Of a stretch of DNA of 31,270 nt, positions 197 through 30,917 are shown piece after piece. Both the position numbers and the translations under genes were made by a program. The stretch's first letter is position 1, and the number at the start of each line of letters is the position of its first letter. Below the pieces are notes generated by a model. The model was not told where the DNA came from. It saw only the letters and a program-made list of their open reading frames with translations, and did no database searches. Location: positions 1 through 31,270 of IMG/VR virus record IMGVR_UViG_3300020195_000118; one strand, 5' to 3'. Origin of the DNA: a virus.

Positions 197-493
197 CTAT
201 ATTAAGAGCTTAGACAGGAACTCCCAGTGAGGAGAATCCTTGTAACGCTCTAAGACTTCGATTTCAGAATCGAATCTCTCACACAGCTTAGAGTTCCCAG
301 ATATCGATTGCAGTTCTTCGGGGCTGAACCCTGAGAGCCTGACACTCCATGGCGGAACACTATTGATGCGGTTATCGGTGAGAAGTAGGTCGGAGCCGAT
401 TCCGTGCTTATAGATCTCAAAGAAAGGAATGGGATTATCCTCTGTTTCAGGATACTCAAAGACGTAATAAGTCACCACCACCACCACCACCAC
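197..493 (-). CDS. small paralogous-family protein, GTG-repeat start
   Basis: A 98-residue protein of unknown function. Its C-terminal tail (EVLERYKDSPHW..LSKLLI) matches the tail pattern of the neighbouring small proteins (compare ELLEKYKDHE..YRGLI at 1125), so I place it in the same family. It opens with a run of seven GTG codons directly after the preceding TAA, giving an N-terminal poly-valine stretch. The only plausible ribosome site is AGAGG at 506-510, about 12 nt before the first GTG, so the exact start within the run is uncertain. It is the last gene of this minus-strand cluster visible here. Confidence 0.6.
   Translation of the reverse strand: MVVVVVVTYYVFEYPETEDNPIPFFEIYKHGIGSDLLLTDNRINSVPPWSVRLSGFSPEELQSISGNSKLCERFDSEIEVLERYKDSPHWEFLSKLLI
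473..493 (-). repeat. (GTG)7 trinucleotide repeat at a gene start
   Basis: Seven CAC triplets on the plus strand read as seven GTG codons on the minus strand. They form the start and first residues of the gene 197-493. Gain or loss of units would keep the frame but alter ribosome-site spacing and N-terminal length. Confidence 0.9.
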
Positions 494-754
494 TTAGATC
501 AATATCCTCTCATAATGTGATTTCATTATTTGGGCAGTCTCTGCTCCGTACACGAGAATGGATGTAGACTCTAAAAGACGAGAGACTAAAGCGCCAATTA
601 CGAAAGGACTTAAGATGAAAGCGAATGCCGCCAATAAGAAGAAAAGTATTGTCATTAAAGCCGTCCACTTGGAGACTGGAAAAGAGTTAATATTTGAGAG
701 CAAAGCCGCAGCCGTCAAAGCTGGGTTCGATAAGTCGAGCATAGAGCGTTGCAT
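494..754 (-). CDS. putative small membrane protein with family C-terminal tail (antisense to the NUMOD gene)
   Basis: An 86-residue open frame with one strongly hydrophobic stretch (about residues 31-57) followed by a tail, SILVYGAETA..YERILI, like the tails of neighbouring small proteins. The ORF at 3107-3295 has the same layout of membrane segment plus tail. The last codons carry AGAGG, which would serve the next gene. Against it, residues 1-46 lie antisense to a convincing plus-strand gene (615-803), and antisense of Lys-rich codons tends to look hydrophobic. A likely alternative start is the ATG at 742. It may be a real overlapping gene, or only the 3' remnant of a family member displaced by the NUMOD gene. 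Confidence 0.4.
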   Translation of the reverse strand: MQRSMLDLSNPALTAAALLSNINSFPVSKWTALMTILFFLLAAFAFILSPFVIGALVSRLLESTSILVYGAETAQIMKSHYERILI

Positions 755-803
755 CCTGGGTCACGTGAATCACCACAAGGGCTACAAATGGAGCTTAAAT
801 TAA
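615..803 (+). CDS. stand-alone NUMOD1-like DNA-binding domain protein
   Basis: A 62-residue protein with a short Lys-rich leader and one domain of the type found beside homing endonucleases. It has a beta hairpin around HLETGKELIF, a helix-turn-helix-like part (ESKAAAVKAGFDKSSIERC) and the terminal GYKW. NUMOD1-type modules are known to bind DNA next to HNH or GIY-YIG nucleases. No nuclease domain is attached or adjacent here. I chose ATG 615 because AAAGGA at 603-608 precedes it by 6 nt; the ATG at 558 lacks a comparable site. It runs against all neighbouring genes, which suggests insertion from elsewhere. It may be a regulator or a homing-endonuclease remnant. Confidence 0.75.
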   Translation: MKANAANKKKSIVIKAVHLETGKELIFESKAAAVKAGFDKSSIERCILGHVNHHKGYKWSLN

Positions 804-845
804 GAGAGAGAGAGAGAGAGAGGTCCTCGGTGTGGGTTCTCTCTC
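803..845. repeat. (AG)10 microsatellite with complementary TC tract
   Basis: Ten AG units at 803-822 begin inside the stop codon of the plus-strand NUMOD-like gene. A pyrimidine tract (tctctctc, 838-845) that can pair with them overlaps the stop of the converging minus-strand gene. An 8-bp stem with a loop of variable register is possible. It may act as a two-way terminator, but there is no U tract. Confidence 0.7.
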
Positions 846-1125
846 ATATGACATGTGCATAGACTTGCTCCATCAGATCAGGCAGTGCAGAGTAGGCCTC
901 TAATACTTCAATGAAAGTAGCTTGCGAATACCCTCTGCCAAGCACTGTTTCCGTGGTGTTATATCCATTCTGTCCCACGTAGTCGACTCTCACCCATGAC
1001 TGGTTACTGATCTTGACAGACCAGAAACGAGCGACATAGAATTCACCTCGTACCATTTTGTACAGAGTTCTTGGATAGCTCTTAATATTGATGAAGTAGA
1101 TCGTTTCTTCAAAATCTACACTCAT
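844..1125 (-). CDS. small paralogous-family protein
   Basis: A 93-residue protein of unknown function. It shows the family's aromatic core, FWSVKISNQSWVR, with two tryptophans seven residues apart, and the helical tail IEVLEAYSAL..VYAHVI. Its start overlaps the upstream gene's stop (TGATG). Its ribosome site, GAGGG, lies within the last codons of that upstream gene, so translation is probably coupled. No signal peptide or membrane segment is seen. Confidence 0.75.
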   Translation of the reverse strand: MSVDFEETIYFINIKSYPRTLYKMVRGEFYVARFWSVKISNQSWVRVDYVGQNGYNTTETVLGRGYSQATFIEVLEAYSALPDLMEQVYAHVI

Positions 1126-1382
1126 CAGATCAGCCCTCGATATAGTTTCTCAGTGAGCTCGTGATCCTTGTATTTCTCTAGCAGCTCTAATGGAGTATAG
1201 ACCTGGAATCCCCTTGCTAATAGCTTGTCTCTTGTCAGGTAAGACACCGCCCAGGCGCTTCGCATTTCTGATGAGCCTACGGGAAATGAATGCATAAGCC
1301 CAGATTGCTTACCGAATCTGAATAGATACCAATTCGAGGCCTCATTCCACAGATACTCACAGTCTTCAGGAGGAATCACCAT
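1125..1382 (-). CDS. small paralogous-family protein
   Basis: An 85-residue protein of unknown function. Aromatic residues are frequent in the first half, and the tail TPLELLEKYKDHE..YRGLI is one of the clearest family tails. The ATG overlaps the end of the upstream gene (ATGGTGA). Its ribosome site GAGG lies about 20 nt upstream, separated from the ATG by a (GTA)4 tract, which is unusually far. The tail's CGAGGG codons provide the ribosome site for the next gene. Confidence 0.75.
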   Translation of the reverse strand: MVIPPEDCEYLWNEASNWYLFRFGKQSGLMHSFPVGSSEMRSAWAVSYLTRDKLLARGFQVYTPLELLEKYKDHELTEKLYRGLI

Positions 1383-1648
1383 GTTGTTACTACTACTACT
1401 GCCTCACAGAAAGCTCGAGCGTACTCAGTGCTTTCGAACTTCTCCAGGAGCTCTAGATCGGAAAAGACAGAGCAACCGTAGATACTCTCGAGGTCGCCGA
1501 TCGTCATCATCGCTAAAGGCGACATATCGTACCAGCCTAGTTCTGGATCCCAGATGTCAAATGCCTCTATCAGACTACCATCTACAGACTTATACAGAGT
1601 GTCGTCGTCTTCGGACTCTAGAAGAGAAACATTGAGATAGTATTTCAT
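1376..1648 (-). CDS. small paralogous-family protein with trinucleotide-repeat C-terminus
   Basis: A 90-residue protein of unknown function with the family core IEAFDIWDPELGWYD and the tail LELLEKFESTEYARAFCEA. The normal tail end is extended by VVVVTTW, of which four Val codons come from a (GTA)4 tract (1388-1399). The repeat therefore changes both this protein's end and the distance between the next gene's ribosome site and its start. The ATG overlaps the preceding gene's stop (ATGA), and GGAG in that gene is its ribosome site. Confidence 0.7.
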   Translation of the reverse strand: MKYYLNVSLLESEDDDTLYKSVDGSLIEAFDIWDPELGWYDMSPLAMMTIGDLESIYGCSVFSDLELLEKFESTEYARAFCEAVVVVTTW

Positions 1649-1878
1649 ATTATTGCTCCATATATCATTGACGTCATTGGATGATCCTTATACTTTACTA
1701 GAATCTCTATAGCAGGAAGTTCTTCATATCCCTCAGCCAGCAATATCTCGACAGAGATAAGTTTCGGATACCATCCTCTGCTAGAAACCCAGGAATGGAA
1801 GATTTCTAGTCTACAGCCCATATCCTGGCGCACAAGGACTGTAGAGGATGAGGATTCTTTTATGAAATATCTAATCAC
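1645..1878 (-). CDS. small paralogous-family protein
   Basis: A 77-residue protein of unknown function. The family core is LEIFHSWVSSRGWY and the tail is AIEILVKYKDHP..IYGAII. It starts with GTG at 1878, and a GGGAGG motif about 11 nt upstream lies inside the 19-codon reading frame at 1882-1941. It overlaps the following gene by ATGA. Confidence 0.75.
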   Translation of the reverse strand: MIRYFIKESSSSTVLVRQDMGCRLEIFHSWVSSRGWYPKLISVEILLAEGYEELPAIEILVKYKDHPMTSMIYGAII

Positions 1879-1881
1879 GCC

Positions 1882-1941
1882 CTACACTACCTCCCGCAAT
1901 ATCTGATCCTGCAAGGGCCAGACGTAGTAGATGTATTCCAT
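1882..1941 (-). CDS. 19-residue micro-ORF resembling a shortened family member
   Basis: Reads MEYIYYVWPLQDQILREVV. The start resembles the MSYVYTVW start of the gene at 4166-4405, and the end (ILREVV) resembles that gene's end (VLRDLV), as if the middle had been deleted. AAGGAG at 1954-1959 lies 12 nt upstream, and the gaps to the genes on both sides are short. Its last codons include the ribosome site of the gene 1645-1878. It could be a leader peptide, a degenerate gene or chance. Confidence 0.35.
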   Translation of the reverse strand: MEYIYYVWPLQDQILREVV

Positions 1942-1957
1942 GGTCTCTCACGTCTCC

Positions 1958-2197
1958 TTATCTAAATAGATCCATTACCATCTGACGCCTCTTCGACCTA
2001 TCCTGTTGCCGGGATAAGAGCATCTTAGAGATCAGTTCTACTTCCGATACCGGACCATGGATCTTTTTAGCCTTTAGTCTCTTTTGATCGGGGAACTCCC
2101 AAGTTTTCGAGAACCAGTTAAACCAGCCTAAGGACTTGTTCGCTCTCGATACTCTAAAGACGAACGTAAAACTATCTGAATGGTAATACTCGTACAC
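1958..2197 (-). CDS. small paralogous-family protein (diverged)
   Basis: A 79-residue basic protein of unknown function. The core GWFNWFSKTWEFP fits the tryptophan pattern of the neighbours. The C-terminal helix is more basic (SRQQDRSKRRQ..MDLFR) than in the other members. It starts with GTG at 2197, 5 nt after the upstream gene's stop. Confidence 0.65.
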   Translation of the reverse strand: MYEYYHSDSFTFVFRVSRANKSLGWFNWFSKTWEFPDQKRLKAKKIHGPVSEVELISKMLLSRQQDRSKRRQMVMDLFR

Positions 2198-2202
2198 CGG
2201 GG

Positions 2203-2544
2203 CTACCTCATAATAATTACTTCAGACAGGAATCTGCGAACCTGATACATGGACATGCCAACTTCTTTATCTCCCATGTGAGAGCAAACAAACACATTGC
2301 CGCAGATGAATTGGTTGATGTTCGGTAGAGCTAGAGTCGGATGAGCGTTAGTCGCCTCTAAATCTTCTCTGTAGTAGATAACCACAAATGGATCTTGAGT
2401 TGCTCCAGCGAGGAGAGCTAAGTCCCCGCCTACAGATTCGCTAATGGTCTCGTAAGGGATAAGCCCTGGCTTCACTTCTAATGTCTTATAGGAACCTTCC
2501 TCGGTTATCAATAGAGCGTACAGTGTCAGAGGTCTAGTCGGCAT
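2203..2544 (-). CDS. DUF3846-like protein (tentative)
   Basis: A 113-residue protein. The pattern YETISESVGGDLALLAG, then a VVIYYRED strand, then ICGNVFV, and a terminal helix resembles DUF3846, a family of unknown function common in phages and plasmids. The match is from memory of the family pattern and is not strong. It does not share the tryptophan core and tail of its neighbours. AAAGGAG precedes the ATG, and a sigma70-like promoter lies just upstream (2585-2612), so it appears to begin its own transcript. Confidence 0.55.
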   Translation of the reverse strand: MPTRPLTLYALLITEEGSYKTLEVKPGLIPYETISESVGGDLALLAGATQDPFVVIYYREDLEATNAHPTLALPNINQFICGNVFVCSHMGDKEVGMSMYQVRRFLSEVIIMR

Positions 2545-2584
2545 ATTTTGGACTCCTTTAAGGCGGGCGTGTGTATACCTGCTA

Positions 2585-2612
2585 TTTATACAGTAGCAAG
2601 CCCTTTAGCCAA
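2585..2612 (-). promoter_or_regulatory. sigma70-like promoter, minus strand
   Basis: On the minus strand, TTGGCT (2612-2607), a 16-nt spacer and TATAAA (2590-2585) lie in the only sizeable gap of this cluster, upstream of the gene starting at 2544. A TTGTCC hexamer just upstream (2618-2613) matches the -35 type seen elsewhere but is badly spaced. Confidence 0.5.
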
Positions 2613-2619
2613 GGACAAC

Positions 2620-2868
2620 CTAAATTAGGTGTTGGAGGAGCTCTGGATAATGCGCCAACTGTTCCCTATAAACAAATAAGGTCTCTATAAGACTGGAATG
2701 GAAGACAGACACATTAGATTCCACCACCCATTGAGAGATATAGAAGCGCATCCAGGTTCTAGACTTTACGTCCCAGTATTCCCATATCTCCTCTTCTCTA
2801 TCCCGTCTAATGAGAGACGCGTGTTTTTCTGTGTAAAGAGGGGAATATACTCCGTACTCGACGCTCAT
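2620..2868 (-). CDS. small paralogous-family protein
   Basis: An 82-residue protein of unknown function. The core EYWDVKSRTWMRFY and the tail LIETLFVYREQL..LLQHLI are good examples of the family pattern. The start overlaps the previous stop (ATGA), and GAGGT in the previous gene's last codons is its ribosome site. It is the last gene before the promoter gap. Confidence 0.75.
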   Translation of the reverse strand: MSVEYGVYSPLYTEKHASLIRRDREEEIWEYWDVKSRTWMRFYISQWVVESNVSVFHSSLIETLFVYREQLAHYPELLQHLI

Positions 2869-3110
2869 ATGAAATACCTCATTACAAGGTCTAAGTTGGA
2901 TATCTCCGTACTGTACTCGGCAATAAAATCTATTATGTCGCGTATCATTGGAGGATCATCCCATACGCCTCTGATGACATTACGGTTGATGACCCAAGAC
3001 TGATTAATTGGACTAAACCAATAGCTATTCTCTAAACTGTTCATATCGTAACGAATTATGACCTTACGCATAGAGATCGCATGCTCCCCAAGTAAATAGA
3101 CGTAGCTCAT
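2865..3110 (-). CDS. small paralogous-family protein
   Basis: An 81-residue protein of unknown function beginning MSYVYLLGE, close to the start of the gene at 4166 (MSYVYTVWN). The core is SYWFSPINQSWVI and the tail DIIDFIAEYSTE..MRYFI. The ATG overlaps the preceding stop, and GGAGGT 7 nt upstream lies within the preceding gene. Confidence 0.75.
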   Translation of the reverse strand: MSYVYLLGEHAISMRKVIIRYDMNSLENSYWFSPINQSWVINRNVIRGVWDDPPMIRDIIDFIAEYSTEISNLDLVMRYFI

Positions 3111-3295
3111 AGTAGGACCTCCAAGATTTTATCTATTTCCTCGATAGATGAACTATGCTCTACAACACACTCCAGTACACTCTGATGGTTCCTAGCATCT
3201 GGATGACGCGCGACAGACAAGATTGTAGAGATATTTAAAATCGGCAAGAGCAGAGTGAGAGCCAACGCTATATATACTATTGTGCTGTTTGTCAC
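3107..3295 (-). CDS. small membrane protein with family-type tail
   Basis: A 62-residue protein with one N-terminal transmembrane segment (about residues 6-26) and then a soluble tail, SVLECVVEHSSSIEEIDKIL, of the same kind as the soluble family members. It starts with GTG at 3295 behind AAAGG. It is the first gene of a minus-strand operon driven by the promoter at 3322-3350. Membrane insertion is predicted only from hydrophobicity. Confidence 0.65.
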   Translation of the reverse strand: MTNSTIVYIALALTLLLPILNISTILSVARHPDARNHQSVLECVVEHSSSIEEIDKILEVLL

Positions 3296-3317
3296 TTGTA
3301 TGCCTTTATGTTACATA
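3289..3317 (+). promoter_or_regulatory. sigma70-like promoter, plus strand (divergent pair)
   Basis: TTGTCA (3289-3294), 17-nt spacer, TACATA (3312-3317), upstream of the plus-strand gene at 3367. It is back to back with the minus-strand promoter at 3322-3350. Confidence 0.55.
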
Positions 3318-3321
3318 ACCT

Positions 3322-3350
3322 ATGGTACCAACACCAAACCCTATTGACAA
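3322..3350 (-). promoter_or_regulatory. sigma70-like promoter, minus strand (divergent pair)
   Basis: On the minus strand, TTGTCA (3350-3345), 17-nt spacer, TACCAT (3327-3322), upstream of the gene starting at 3295. The two -10 elements of this divergent pair are only 4 bp apart, so simultaneous occupancy should be difficult. Confidence 0.55.
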
Positions 3351-3366
3351 CAAGGAGATTTCTTGT

Positions 3367-3633
3367 ATGGGAGTTAACGTAGAAGACGCAATCAACGAGC
3401 TAATCGATATTCGCTTTGCAGACATGTTCGAAGACATGAAACCAGAGGATCTAATAGAGCTCAGGAATCGCGTAGACGATATGGATCAACGTTTGACAGA
3501 CTTCTTCCAGCTAGTCAACAAGATTGGAGAGTCTTCAGATAAGAGCCGAGGCCGAGGTAGTCGCAGTGGTGTTCTGAGCGGCGGCGGAGCGGCTGGATCT
3601 GGAGGCGGCGAAAGAGGCGGCAAGAAGGAATAA
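3367..3633 (+). CDS. acidic helical protein with Gly/Arg-rich tail
   Basis: An 88-residue protein of unknown function. I chose ATG 3367 because AAGGAG at 3352-3357 lies 9 nt upstream; the upstream in-frame ATG at 3322 overlaps promoter elements and has no ribosome site. Residues 1-50 are acidic and helical, rich in heptad-like Leu/Ile (EDLIELRNRVDDMDQRL). The last 35 residues are a low-complexity Gly/Ser/Arg tail with RGRGSR and a GGERGGKK end. Such tails often bind nucleic acid or act as linkers in other proteins; no function is known here. It stands alone on the plus strand inside the minus-strand cluster. Confidence 0.65.
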   Translation: MGVNVEDAINELIDIRFADMFEDMKPEDLIELRNRVDDMDQRLTDFFQLVNKIGESSDKSRGRGSRSGVLSGGGAAGSGGGERGGKKE

Positions 3634-3645
3634 GCCGGTAGATGT

Positions 3646-3687
3646 CGTTGCGGCACAACGTTATCCAGACATTACCAAGATGGTAAT
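3646..3687. terminator. hairpins between convergent genes (possible two-way terminator)
   Basis: CGTTG/CAACG (3646-3650 with 3656-3660) and ATTACC/GGTAAT (3671-3676 with 3682-3687) form two small perfect stems with 5-nt loops in the gap between converging genes. Neither has a clear U tract, so intrinsic termination is uncertain. Confidence 0.35.
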
Positions 3688-3716
3688 ACCCCGGAACTAT
3701 TGAGGTATTTGGCCGC

Positions 3717-4169
3717 TTACGGATGGTCTTTACAGTGCAGCGACGGTATCCCCAACTCTCGCCACATTCCAATAACGCTCGCCCGATCGTCTAGAGCAAA
3801 CAAAACATCGTAGGTATCCTTGATATATAAATCGTAGATATCCTTTTTAACCTCACAGTCAGGTCTAAAGTCTCCTGGAGTACGCATCAGTAACATATAG
3901 CTGCTGTGGCCGAGGAGAATATGCTTCATTAGCCAAGTGCTCGTAGCAGCCATCGTCCTCTTAGAGGACTGGCGACCAGTAACGAACAGAATCTCGTAGT
4001 CTGGAGCAAACCTATTCACAATCTCTAAACACCACTGGAATGCAGGCGCTTGAATGTTAAACTCGTTCACTTCATCCCAGTCTACCTCTCCATAGAGGTC
4101 TTGAGAGTAAGACTGAGTGTTGGCGAGGCATCCGTCAATATCTACAATAATGGCTTTCTGTTTCGTCAT
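3717..4169 (-). CDS. HAD-superfamily phosphatase, T4 PNK 3'-phosphatase-like
   Basis: A 150-residue protein with all HAD motifs: motif I DIDG with D10 and D12, motif II FVTGR (T64), a basic VKKD segment (K108/K109) after GDFRPD, and motif IV LDDR with D127 and D128, followed by VIGMWRELG. The spacing and the MRTPGDFRPD..VK..I stretch match the C-terminal 3'-phosphatase domain of T4 polynucleotide kinase, which removes 3'-phosphates from nucleic acid ends. The kinase domain is absent. It may take part in nick or tRNA repair, or in nucleotide metabolism. AAGGGA in the upstream gene's last codons is its ribosome site, and the start overlaps that gene by ATGA. Confidence 0.85.
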   Translation of the reverse strand: MTKQKAIIVDIDGCLANTQSYSQDLYGEVDWDEVNEFNIQAPAFQWCLEIVNRFAPDYEILFVTGRQSSKRTMAATSTWLMKHILLGHSSYMLLMRTPGDFRPDCEVKKDIYDLYIKDTYDVLFALDDRASVIGMWRELGIPSLHCKDHP

Positions 4170-4405
4170 ACTAGGTCCCTTAAAACGTTACGGAGAAACT
4201 GGCCTTGATAGTTGGCCAGGACAAAAACTATACATTCATGAATATCGTTAAAAATGAGAACGTTTTCTTGGAGAATATGGTCGAATCTACCTTTCTGGCC
4301 CTGTCTCGCCCATTTCTTGGTCTCCCAACTAAAGATACACCAAGTATTCCTGTTCGTCGAGTATCTCAGTATTCGATTGTTCCAAACAGTGTAAACATAG
4401 GACAC
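4166..4405 (-). CDS. small paralogous-family protein
   Basis: A 79-residue protein of unknown function. It begins MSYVYTVWN, carries the core WCIFSWETKKWARQ, and ends with the tail IHECIVFVLANYQ..VLRDLV. It lies between two enzyme-like genes in one operon and overlaps the HAD phosphatase gene by ATGA. This overlap shows that the family is not limited to 197-3295. Confidence 0.75.
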   Translation of the reverse strand: MSYVYTVWNNRILRYSTNRNTWCIFSWETKKWARQGQKGRFDHILQENVLIFNDIHECIVFVLANYQGQFLRNVLRDLV

Positions 4406-4417
4406 GCCTTACCTCTC

Positions 4418-4975
4418 TTATGGCAGCAAGTTGGGGTCCATGTCCTCTCCGTACACGAGCATCATCGCTAGGATATAGCCATGGCTTAAGGGAGAGTCAA
4501 TGTCCTCAATGGCCTGCCGAACGGTGCGATTATCAGCCTTTACGGCAGAATCCCACAAGACTAAATTCGGATTCTGAGCGTAAGCTGTCTTGAGCGCTGC
4601 CCAGGCTCTACTGTTCTTAACGGTGTCGCGGTACAGCGGAATATACACCTGAGTCCTGGCTTCAACTGCTGAATATCTTTTGCCGTCCCAGAGGATAAAC
4701 TCTCCACCTTCTACCTTCGCTAGTCTCTTATAGCTCCAGCCCTTCTTCGCCCACTTGAAATAGGCAGGAAGGACGCTTCCTTCTTTTATGAATTCAGGCA
4801 GGACCTTACAGAACTGATAGGCGTTTTCTACGTTAGAAGATGAATGGCCGCCATAGAGAGCAACGGGACCGCAATGACTAGGAGCCAGACCATTTGCCCA
4901 GCCACGAGCTCTTACGGAGACGTCTATGACAGTAGGCTCTCGACGAGAGCCAGGACCTATGATTTTAATGGGCAT
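4418..4975 (-). CDS. NADAR-like protein (putative N-glycosidase fold)
   Basis: A 185-residue protein. NVENAYQFCKVLPEF (E50) resembles the vEhayqaqK motif that holds the catalytic Glu of NADAR/YbiA proteins. A later R..W..LK.AYAQNP.L segment and the closing SHGYILAMMLVYG resemble the NADAR helix pattern (Kf.qNp.l, then G..lG..Lm). NADAR enzymes cleave N-glycosidic bonds of riboflavin intermediates or remove ADP-ribose from DNA and other targets, which is relevant to NAD-based phage defence. The assignment is from motif order only; the N-terminal part differs from canonical members. It belongs to the same minus-strand run as the HAD phosphatase. Confidence 0.5.
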   Translation of the reverse strand: MPIKIIGPGSRREPTVIDVSVRARGWANGLAPSHCGPVALYGGHSSSNVENAYQFCKVLPEFIKEGSVLPAYFKWAKKGWSYKRLAKVEGGEFILWDGKRYSAVEARTQVYIPLYRDTVKNSRAWAALKTAYAQNPNLVLWDSAVKADNRTVRQAIEDIDSPLSHGYILAMMLVYGEDMDPNLLP

Positions 4976-4990
4976 TGGAGCCTCCTACAC

Positions 4991-5260
4991 TCAGACTTCA
5001 CTCAACAGGATGAAATCTAAGAGATTCTTGATGTCGTAATGGTGTTTTTGAGGCTTGTCTTCAACATAAACCAATATAGCTTCACAGAGTGTTCTTGCGC
5101 AAGGGTATTTAACTCCTACTGAAAACGGCCCAGCATTCAGGTTAGACCAGCAGATAGGAGTGCAGCCGTCTCGGATCAGGTACTGGTGATGATTTCCGGT
5201 TTGTTTGAAGACACATACAATAATGTCATTACGAATACCAGCAAAACTGATCGTGTACAT
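4991..5260 (-). CDS. small paralogous-family protein (diverged, longer tail)
   Basis: An 89-residue protein of unknown function. The tail CEAILVYVEDKPQKHHYD..LLDFILL follows the family pattern. The aromatic core is weaker (CWSNLNAGPFSVG). It is the first gene of the minus-strand operon 3717-5260, with promoter-like elements upstream at 5301-5329. Confidence 0.65.
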   Translation of the reverse strand: MYTISFAGIRNDIIVCVFKQTGNHHQYLIRDGCTPICWSNLNAGPFSVGVKYPCARTLCEAILVYVEDKPQKHHYDIKNLLDFILLSEV

Positions 5261-5955: not shown

Positions 5956-6330
5956 ATGAGCGCCAACAACGTAGTCGAAATGTCTAAATACCTTCTAAAC
6001 AAGAAATCCATTCTTGGAGCTGTAGATGAAAAGGGCCTGCTGCGTCAACAGTACGCTGCTGCTCAGACTCAAGAAGCAATTCGTCTGGCTTATAAGCAAG
6101 CAATCGTGTTGCATCATAAGAACAATTACCTCGTGGTGCTCAATCTGAGCATATGGAATTATTTGAGGTTTTTTGTTCTTTGCTTCAAGACGTTTGGAGA
6201 GTTTCCCTCTACTCTCTTGAGAGGGAAACTTGGTAGGTATGATTCAGATTTGAAACAGGTCGTGGTGCTGAGGAAAGGTCCCAGTGCTCGTAAATTCAAG
6301 AACCTGCTCAGGGCTTTTGGCGGGATTTAG
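5956..6330 (+). CDS. hypothetical protein, hairpin within the gene
   Basis: A 124-residue protein that I do not recognise. Residues 1-55 are helical and soluble (LLRQQYAAAQTQEAIRLAYKQA). The second half changes character, with a hydrophobic Phe/Leu-rich segment (NYLRFFVLCFKTF) and a basic end. AGAGG precedes the ATG. The hairpin at 6200-6230 lies in this second half, and the -1 frame is open across 6120-6236 with soluble-looking codons, so a frame disruption is possible. It overlaps the end of the converging gene 6308-6862 by 23 nt. Confidence 0.55.
   Translation: MSANNVVEMSKYLLNKKSILGAVDEKGLLRQQYAAAQTQEAIRLAYKQAIVLHHKNNYLVVLNLSIWNYLRFFVLCFKTFGEFPSTLLRGKLGRYDSDLKQVVVLRKGPSARKFKNLLRAFGGI
6200..6230. 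repeat. perfect 11-bp stem hairpin inside a gene
   Basis: AGTTTCCCTCT (6200-6210) and AGAGGGAAACT (6220-6230) pair perfectly around a 9-nt loop. There is no U tract on either side. It sits about 80 bp from the convergent gene ends, so it could slow polymerase or protect transcript ends. Confidence 0.6.
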
Positions 6331-6862
6331 AAGGCTTCTGAGCTACGGTTTCAGCTAAAACAGATGCACTGTCTTCCACTTCCCCGTCTTTACTTACCCC
6401 ATCTGCAGAAAACCCATCAGAAAAATAAATATCCTGATCAGAAATGTCTGGTACATCATCAAAGAGCCCGCCTTCTTTATGCAGAGCCTTTAATTCTATA
6501 ATTAAAGGCTCTTTGATGAGTTTCTTGATGGCAGTTTCCTGTATTTTCTTTATCTGCTCCTTAGAGAGACCTAGCAGCAAAGCCATTTCCTGCTCAGAAA
6601 ACGCTTGACCATCAGTCAGAGCCATGAGCTTAAAGAAACAGTAGCTATGCTTATCCTCAGTGAGAATCCCCCACGTACAGCCTGAAGCTATTTTTTCTTG
6701 AAATGGAAGGTACCCGGCGTTATCTCTAGTCCAACGAGCTCTTTGGAGCCCAAATGGACAGATAGCGTCTGGTAGTTTCTCGAGTTTGCGAGGACAACAA
6801 TCCTTGAAACGATCGACCTCGACCTTATTCTTGGGGAGCGACGAACCCGCTGGCTTGCTCAT
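6308..6862 (-). CDS. Cys-rich protein with sigma-region-4-like helix-turn-helix
   Basis: A 184-residue protein. Its start is ATG 6862, because AAGGAG lies just upstream; longer in-frame readings lack a site. Residues 88-117 (FSEQEMALLLGLSKEQ, then IQETAIKKLIK) match the region-4 helix-turn-helix of sigma factors (..EIA..LG.S...V..IE..A..KL). Before it, Cys 22, 23, 35, 62 and 75, in CCPRKL, ICPFGL, GCTW and YCFF, could bind zinc. The C-terminus is acidic and disordered. It is likely a phage transcription regulator or sigma-like factor, placed last in the virion operon. No regions 1-3 of a true sigma factor are present. It overlaps the upstream gene by 38 nt. Confidence 0.6.
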   Translation of the reverse strand: MSKPAGSSLPKNKVEVDRFKDCCPRKLEKLPDAICPFGLQRARWTRDNAGYLPFQEKIASGCTWGILTEDKHSYCFFKLMALTDGQAFSEQEMALLLGLSKEQIKKIQETAIKKLIKEPLIIELKALHKEGGLFDDVPDISDQDIYFSDGFSADGVSKDGEVEDSASVLAETVAQKPSKSRQKP

Positions 6863-7076
6863 GTTGTTCTCCTTCCTTAGCCATGGCCGCTTGATAGCCT
6901 GCCATCCACTCGACGTCTTTAGACAGCAGGTAACCGACAGCCTTTTCAAGCTCAAAGAGGCGTCCTTCGAGCTCTAAAGACTTGATATGTGATGCTTCTG
7001 AGTTCTTGATTAATTGATCAAACTGAGCTAAGAATTTTTCAAGCACTTCATTTGAATCTACTTCTGTGTTTTCCAT
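6825..7076 (-). CDS. small coiled-coil protein
   Basis: An 83-residue acidic protein that I do not recognise. Residues 5-55 form a probable coiled coil (LEKFLAQFDQLIKNSE.., LELEGRLFELEKAV). GGAG precedes the ATG. Its end overlaps the start of the regulator-like gene 6308-6862, whose ribosome site lies in this gene's codons, so the two are probably translated together. Confidence 0.7.
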   Translation of the reverse strand: MENTEVDSNEVLEKFLAQFDQLIKNSEASHIKSLELEGRLFELEKAVGYLLSKDVEWMAGYQAAMAKEGEQHEQASGFVAPQE

Positions 7077-29297: not shown

Positions 29298-29780
29298 ATG
29301 CAAGAAGTAGTAGTCGGGTTTAGTAGAAATAGGGGTCCGTTTTCCTGGTTGATCAGATATGCCACTGATTCTGGCATCAGCCATGTGTATGTCAAAATTA
29401 CAGACGAAAGCGGCAAAGTCAAAGTATTCCAGGCAAGTGGATTAAAGGTTAATGAGGAATCGTATGAATCATTTCTCACACACGCTACCGTAGTCGCAGA
29501 GATTCCAGTCAAGATATCTGACGAGCACGCAATGTTTTGTGAAGACTTCCGTAAGGCTGCACTGAACAAGCCTTATTCCGTGATGCAGATTGTGGGATTT
29601 GCGTGGGTGCTGTTCTGGCGTCGTATGGCGCATGTTAGAGTCAGCAATCCTTTCTCGAATGGCTCACAAGCCTATATCTGTGTGGAAATCGGTGCTATAT
29701 ATGCCAATATCTCTAACTCAGAAGATCTGACACCAGTGGATCTCTATAACATATTGACTGGAGAAGTAATTGGACATTAA
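29298..29780 (+). CDS. permuted NlpC/P60-like hydrolase
   Basis: A 160-residue protein with the circularly permuted papain-fold pattern. PFSWLIRYATDSGISHVYV carries the His (H29), a VFQASGLKV strand follows, and the nucleophile Cys comes late in SQAYICVEIG (C128). Members cleave peptidoglycan peptides or act on lipids. In a virion operon, a cell-wall endopeptidase used at entry or lysis is plausible. A hydrophobic stretch (VMQIVGFAWVLFW, 95-107) lies before the Cys, unusual for a soluble enzyme. It overlaps the next gene by 11 nt. Confidence 0.62.
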   Translation: MQEVVVGFSRNRGPFSWLIRYATDSGISHVYVKITDESGKVKVFQASGLKVNEESYESFLTHATVVAEIPVKISDEHAMFCEDFRKAALNKPYSVMQIVGFAWVLFWRRMAHVRVSNPFSNGSQAYICVEIGAIYANISNSEDLTPVDLYNILTGEVIGH

Positions 29781-30659: not shown

Positions 30660-30917
30660 GTGGAACAGACCAGAGAGCCGACAACAGTCGGAGCAACGCT
30701 GAAGTACGAGTTCATGCCTGACCGTGGAATGACCACAAAGCAGCTCGCTAAACAGCTTGGAATGCATCGTCCAGCTTTACGTCGAATGCTAGAAAACGAG
30801 ACCCATATAGATGCCAAGATTGCTCAAAAACTAAGCAACATATTCGACACTGAGCCTCAGTTTTGGTTGAACCTTCAGAAGGCGCATAGAGCATACGTGA
30901 AGACTTTAATCAAATAA
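30660..30917 (+). CDS. HigA/VapI-like antitoxin or repressor, no toxin partner
   Basis: An 85-residue helix-turn-helix protein of the HigA antitoxin type: TVGATLKYEFMPDRGMT, the helix-turn-helix KQLAKQLGMHRPALRRML, then HIDAKIAQKLSNIFDTEPQFWLNLQKAH, with the family's terminal FW.NLQ. In bacteria HigA neutralises and represses with the HigB RNase toxin. No HigB-like gene lies before it (unrelated adaptor gene) or after it (RNase HI). It may be a transcriptional regulator or a decoy antitoxin against host HigB. It starts with GTG at 30660, with GGAGAA 9 nt upstream. Confidence 0.85.
   Translation: MEQTREPTTVGATLKYEFMPDRGMTTKQLAKQLGMHRPALRRMLENETHIDAKIAQKLSNIFDTEPQFWLNLQKAHRAYVKTLIK

Follow-up and report, generated by a model that had tools for sequence, protein, structure and literature searches.

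A family of diverged paralogous mini-proteins in an accessory region of a myophage record

The stretch of DNA studied here (31,270 bases, hereafter the window) is the entire IMG/VR virus record IMGVR_UViG_3300020195_000118, which is classed as linear and is therefore probably a fragment; the element of interest is a run of small open reading frames (ORFs) between positions 197 and 5,260. The record comes from a large myophage and carries genes for a portal, a large terminase, a tail sheath and a ClpP-like protease. The closest annotated genome was that of Myxococcus phage Mx1 (identity of 24% for the portal, 32% for the terminase and 33% for the sheath), and the portal distantly resembles SPO1-like portals. 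No relative of the record at the DNA level was found in INPHARED, and seven distant relatives of the phage were recovered via the tail sheath. An earlier note, made from the DNA alone, had described the run as one array of about eleven diverged mini-protein genes. All of the ORFs that it listed exist at their given positions on the minus strand. They do not form a single array, as plus-strand genes at 615-803 and 3367-3633 divide the run into three blocks, and three genes unrelated to the family (2203, DUF3846-like; 3717, a PNKP phosphatase; 4418, DUF6939) lie inside it. The small ORFs, named by their lower coordinate, are the following:

197 to 493, minus strand: core member, 98 amino acids (aa) as listed; profile support; N-terminal MVVVVVV from a (GTG)7 repeat that contains the start codon
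494 to 754, minus strand: ORF that is probably spurious; runs antisense to the NUMOD-like gene at 615-803 and has no Shine-Dalgarno site
844 to 1125, minus strand: core member, 93 aa; leave-one-out profile 23.0 bits; z 4.8 with 1125 and 4.1 with 2620
1125 to 1382, minus strand: core member, 85 aa; leave-one-out profile 26.6 bits, equalled by 0 of 33 window genes and 0 of 1709 Mx1 ORFs
1376 to 1648, minus strand: core member, 90 aa; pair scores and profile; terminal VVVTTW from a GTA repeat and read-on
1645 to 1878, minus strand: core member, 77 aa; pair scores, leave-one-out profile and a model of high predicted confidence (b-b-b-b-a-b-a-a)
1958 to 2197, minus strand: possible member, 79 aa; motif only (hairpin and h-h-R, diverged tail); z 3.2 with 4166
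2620 to 2868, minus strand: core member, 82 aa; profile p 0.0003-0.002; sheet part alone p 0.001
2865 to 3110, minus strand: probable member, 81 aa; profile p 0.03, or p 0.001 without the last six residues
3107 to 3295, minus strand: 62-aa membrane-anchored protein; N-terminal hydrophobic segment and a 2865-like C-terminal tail
4166 to 4405, minus strand: probable member, 79 aa; model made without core sequences; profile alone not significant
4991 to 5260, minus strand: doubtful member, 89 aa; three-element motif only, with Phe as the second aromatic; no profile support

Pairwise alignment scores were compared with those of shuffled sequences, which gave z values of 11.5 for 1125 with 1645, 5.5 for 1376 with 1645, 4.8 for 844 with 1125, 4.5 for 844 with 1645 and 4.1 for 844 with 2620; control pairs that involved the region's three identifiable genes from outside the family had a mean z of 0.1. 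Profiles of a core set (197, 844, 1125, 1376, 1645 and 2620) were evaluated by leaving out each tested member from its own profile, and all six outscored 33 of 33 other window genes as well as 1709 of 1709 background ORFs from Mx1. Since the core set was picked after the pairwise scores, the leave-one-out tests are not fully independent of them. By these profiles the six genes are paralogs, and 2865 is probably a seventh, its p value falling to about 0.001 upon removal of the last six residues. With the same residues removed, five of the six core members stayed at p <= 0.0002, and 2620 dropped to p 0.03-0.08. The profile similarity among members that the earlier note had expected thus holds for these seven, but 4166, 1958 and 4991 were not separable from chance in the leave-one-out profiles, and 494 and 3107 also fell below significance. 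At the level of sequence these scores show a mini-protein family that arose by duplication and then diverged.

Two motifs extend beyond the core. The paired-tryptophan segment noticed earlier was confirmed, as 8 of the 12 small ORFs contain a W-x(4-8)-W pair where shuffles predict 3.0 (p = 0.0004); Phe replaces one of the two tryptophans in 197, 1125 and 4991. A three-element motif (N-terminal Y/F; h-h-[RK]; aromatic-x(4-10)-aromatic), which was defined only after the sequences had been inspected, is present in all ten non-membrane members, with 0.9 expected by shuffling, and was found in 11 of 672 Mx1 ORFs and in none of the 33 other window genes. Pairwise identity among the family proteins (about 77-98 aa) ranges from 18 to 33%, with a mean of 29% in the tail versus 23% in the head, and the tail reached z values of 2.4-6.5 across the six core members.

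The C-terminal tail required separate treatment with regard to translational coupling. Overlaps of 1-7 bases occur at six junctions (3107/2865, 2865/2620, 4166/3717, 1645/1376, 1376/1125 and 1125/844), and the last codons of 1125, 1645, 2865, 3107 and 4166 hold the Shine-Dalgarno site and start of the next gene; the shared 'h-I' ending that had been taken as part of the tail motif is therefore partly a nucleotide effect. The genes 197, 844 and 2620 nevertheless end in LI or VI though no intact downstream gene overlaps them. The preceding E-h-h-x-x-Y helix is a protein-level feature, because most of the signal outlasts removal of the last six residues, and this part of the proposed motif stands. 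The same nucleotide effect is seen in Citrobacter phage CVT22, where 16 diverged small proteins end in LENE and two more in LINE or LENK (28002-42614), because each gene finishes with a TTGGAGAATGA-type sequence that is used for the start of the following one. The CVT22 interval looks like a cassette array. A conserved C-terminus in coupled arrays of small genes can thus reflect a ribosome-binding site lying within the coding sequence instead of a motif of the protein; this caution does not remove the family described here.

Two structures were predicted. Model 1 is an AlphaFold2 model of 1645 from an eight-row family alignment that included 4166 and 2865 (predicted local distance difference test score, pLDDT, 87.5), with strands at residues 2-8, 13-19, 26-31 and 35-39, a helix at 43-48, a strand at 52-54 and C-terminal helices at 56-62 and 69-76. 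Model 2 is an AlphaFold model of 4166 from an alignment whose only other rows were 2865, 1958 and 4991 (pLDDT 76.4), with strands at 3-8, 11-16, 21-26 and 31-37 and helices at 38-46, 55-65 and 70-78; since its alignment held no core members, the fold of 4166 was not carried over from the core. Both proteins are predicted to form a four-stranded antiparallel beta-meander followed by a helix, a short strand and two helices in the same order, in line with the single fold suggested earlier as far as these two models were compared. The paired tryptophans make up the hairpin of strands 3 and 4 in the predicted fold. In structure searches model 1 matched 2ra8 residues 1-111 best (Z 6.1, 66 aligned residues), followed by propeller blades at Z of about 4, and all matches of model 2 had Z <= 4.2, the best being to folds other than WGR. 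A viral Foldseek search returned no confident relative of the models (every match E > 0.1).

Taken together, the family has seven supported and probably about nine members, fewer than the eleven or so first proposed, with six placed by profile, 2865 probable, 4991 doubtful and 494 probably spurious. The latter is probably not a gene because it lies antisense to the NUMOD-like gene and has no Shine-Dalgarno site; it was not judged by codon usage, a score that separates genes from antisense ORFs poorly here. The 3107 protein was correctly described as membrane-anchored, having an N-terminal hydrophobic segment, and is encoded by the first gene of the operon 3295-844. Its tail resembles that of the neighbouring 2865 (pair z 3.7); in ungapped comparison the tail scores 40 against the best-matching partner, and the mean over tails has p 0.013.

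Several sequence features were noticed at the gene edges. Tandem repeats occur at 473-493 ((GTG)7, at the start of 197), at 803-822 ((AG)10, just downstream of 844) and at about 1381-1399 (a GTA repeat that closes 1376 and separates a Shine-Dalgarno-like GAGG from the start of 1125). Such trinucleotide repeats encode the poly-Val ends of 197 and 1376, and the edge repeats could change translation by slippage. At 803-846, beside the NUMOD-like gene, 844 has the ATATGA ending of the coupled genes, and the overlapped start now reads into (AG)10 and then stops; this is possibly the relic of a disrupted coupled gene.

Other genes and elements on the record are as follows:

6 to 44 and 67 to 105: exact 39-nt direct repeat (start-to-start distance 61), with no further copy in the window; may be regulatory
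615 to 803, plus strand: NUMOD-like/helix-turn-helix DNA-binding protein, 62 aa, between 844 and 197 (PF22083, E 1.8e-6; phrog_20162, E 6e-9; phrog_3855, E 9e-9); preceded by a Shine-Dalgarno site
2203 to 2544, minus strand: DUF3846-like protein, 113 aa (Pfam E 1.3e-4, under the gathering score)
3367 to 3633, plus strand: 88-aa gene with an AAGGAG site that splits the array; highest codon-usage score of the region
3717 to 4169, minus strand: stand-alone PNKP-type HAD polynucleotide 3'-phosphatase (PF25109, E 2.1e-27; phrog_415, E 1.4e-30), DxDG motif intact
4418 to 4975, minus strand: DUF6939 protein, 185 aa (PF22075, E 1.1e-7, above the cut-off), with relatives in huge and medium phages
6308 to 6955, minus strand: weak similarity to sigma-70 region 4 (E 0.026)
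29298 to 29780, plus strand: possible permuted papain-like enzyme (NF008552, E 0.007, far under the cut-off)
30660 to 30917, plus strand: HigA-family antitoxin gene (TIGR02607, E 1.8e-18), with the end of the record about 350 bases beyond

The phosphatase, DUF6939, DUF3846-like and NUMOD-like genes are features that point to an accessory region. Among the substrates of phage polynucleotide kinase/phosphatases, which mend the ends of nucleic acids, are tRNAs cut by host defence nucleases, and the 3717 enzyme may by analogy repair ends in that way. For 4418 an assignment as NADAR was considered but not supported, as PF08719 gave no match at E up to 10 and Pfam assigns DUF6939; no ADP-ribose role is therefore claimed. 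The HigA-family gene could provide a phage-borne antitoxin against a host toxin.

Relatives of the family were sought in several ways. Searches of Pfam, PHROGs and, with a family profile, the PDB recognised no relative, in agreement with the earlier statement that no named family has this layout. The expected matches in similar arrays of other phages were not obtained: family profiles found nothing above shuffled controls in Mx1 (169.6 kb) and four related contigs (164.9, 30.2, 74.0 and 11.2 kb), and INPHARED tblastn searches with four members gave none or chance-level matches. No relatives were found in IMG/VR using single queries (portal, terminase and two mini-proteins) or with a terminase alignment that included Mx1, and no match was returned by an IMG/VR scan with the tail pattern or by scans of genome contigs for the family. 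As exact-pattern scans miss most diverged relatives, these searches show only the absence of close relatives from the collections searched. Literature searches identified no paper describing the mini-protein family. The family is real and unnamed in the libraries searched.

With regard to function, we give an even chance to a lineage-specific expansion of small host-interaction proteins that share one fold and are made from coupled operons for host takeover or counter-defence. The copies would be small cytosolic proteins, the aromatic meander face of each binding its own target or its own variant of a common one, and the somewhat better conserved helical tail would serve all copies in the same way, for example by packing, by oligomerisation or as a docking site for a shared partner. 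While the phage takes over its host or counters its defences, the copies would be co-produced through translational coupling within their operons, alongside a phosphatase of the type that repairs nucleic acid ends. The targets would be host or defence proteins, the link to defence being the weakest step. Paralogy, the same element order in both models, the somewhat better conserved tail, coupling, the accessory context, the HigA antitoxin and the lineage restriction were counted in its support. The anti-host or anti-defence role, already suspected in the earlier note, is plausible from genomic context and general precedent. Several points weigh against this proposal. The two models agree in element order, which is not superposition, and one has a pLDDT of 76; the alignment of the other also included 4166 and 2865; and the likeness to known folds is weak (best Z 6.1). 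Small phage genes that are structural or under weak constraint would be expected to diverge fast as well, and a promoter scan for early expression gave no excess over chance. Among the scanned members no match to a defence or anti-defence family was found in Pfam, PHROGs and PADLOC (the last covering defence rather than counter-defence), and no member had a homolog of known function in the libraries searched.

One alternative, which we regard as unlikely yet deserving serious attention, is that true relatedness is limited to the six or seven core genes and that the remaining likeness stems from composition and from ribosome sites and start codons in the C-terminal codons of overlapping genes. 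The overlaps in 1125, 1645, 2865, 3107 and 4166, the LENE endings of CVT22, which arise by the same mechanism, and the failure of 4166, 1958 and 4991 in the profile test all speak for it, whereas the -LI/-VI endings of 197, 844 and 2620, the element order of the 4166 model and the occurrence of the three-element motif in all non-membrane members argue for a wider family. An improbable option is a phage-specific constant-tail/variable-head system of duplicated mini-proteins, in which a shared helical C-terminal module would recruit one partner and interchangeable N-terminal modules (the aromatic meander in most, the membrane anchor in 3107) would pick host or defence targets; 3107 fits such a modular tail, as a single case in which part of the likeness is an embedded ribosome site.

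The predicted meander also suggests subunits of a hetero-oligomer, i.e., single propeller-blade-like or Sm-like units with paralogs mixed in one ring, comparable to the short Ralstonia lectin chain that forms a multi-chain propeller. Over their first 40 residues, both models match single blades of the RSL lectin (1.8-2.2 A over 41-43 residues, Z of about 4) and of Kelch proteins (1.1-2.2 A over 37-42 residues, Z of about 3.2) as well as Sm proteins (Z of about 3.2), and one operon encodes paralogs. A four-stranded meander is very common, however, all blade and Sm Z values are below 8, and no Kelch or lectin Pfam match was obtained at E up to 1 (eight members) or 0.1 (4166 and 4991); membership in those families is further disfavoured by the single meander per chain, without repeated blades. 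We therefore rate the ring as quite unlikely. Even less probable, and the least so of all readings weighed here, are WGR-like nucleic-acid-binding mini-domains, to which the best structural match of model 1 (2ra8) and a match to PARP-1 553-700 (Z 3.8), which we take to span most of its WGR domain, would point: the PF05406 profile matched in control genomes but nowhere in the window at E up to 10, model 2 matched other folds best with WGR unlisted, and the W-x-W spacing is unlike the WGR motif. Virion or structural accessory proteins (decoration, neck or chaperones) duplicated for structural reasons would agree with the structural genes on the same contig and with the neck protein of phage 812 (8qkh_s, Z 3.6) in the structural list. 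Opposite-strand genes stand between the array and the portal operon, however, enzymes rather than virion genes share its transcription blocks, and no structural family was matched, so that we hold this origin to be improbable too.

The small genes of large phages are for the most part unexplained, and annotation usually overlooks diverged paralogs; here leave-one-out profiles together with predicted folds revealed a family and defined about nine proteins for host-target screening. The array, preferably read as a set of host-interaction proteins, can be compared with several known systems. The host-takeover module of Bacillus phage SPO1 (PMC6873191) likewise consists of small, tightly packed accessory genes clustered in a large myophage; it is not presented there as one diverged family, and the INPHARED tblastn searches with four members gave no link to its proteins. 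Archaeal viruses with anti-CRISPR and anti-defence genes (PMC11065993) also carry several functionally uncharacterised small-protein paralogs per virus, but the hosts and proteins are different and no sequence relationship is expected. Single propeller blades (RSL lectin, Kelch) share the four-stranded meander with aromatics on the outer strands, whereas they have no helical tail, are repeated in a chain or trimer, and match with low Z and without a profile match. The WGR domain (PF05406) was a weak structural match of model 1 only, again without a profile match. Phage CVT22 (KP774835) has about 20 coupled genes for diverged, often Trp-rich proteins of 63-88 aa with Shine-Dalgarno sites in their last codons, and one of its proteins is a weak fold match to model 2; their common LENE ending is a ribosome-site effect and many of the proteins look like other small folds, and the family profiles gave no significant match to them. 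Accessory arrays made up of small phage genes that evolve quickly are thus a known kind, and the family contained in the array of this record is newly recognised.

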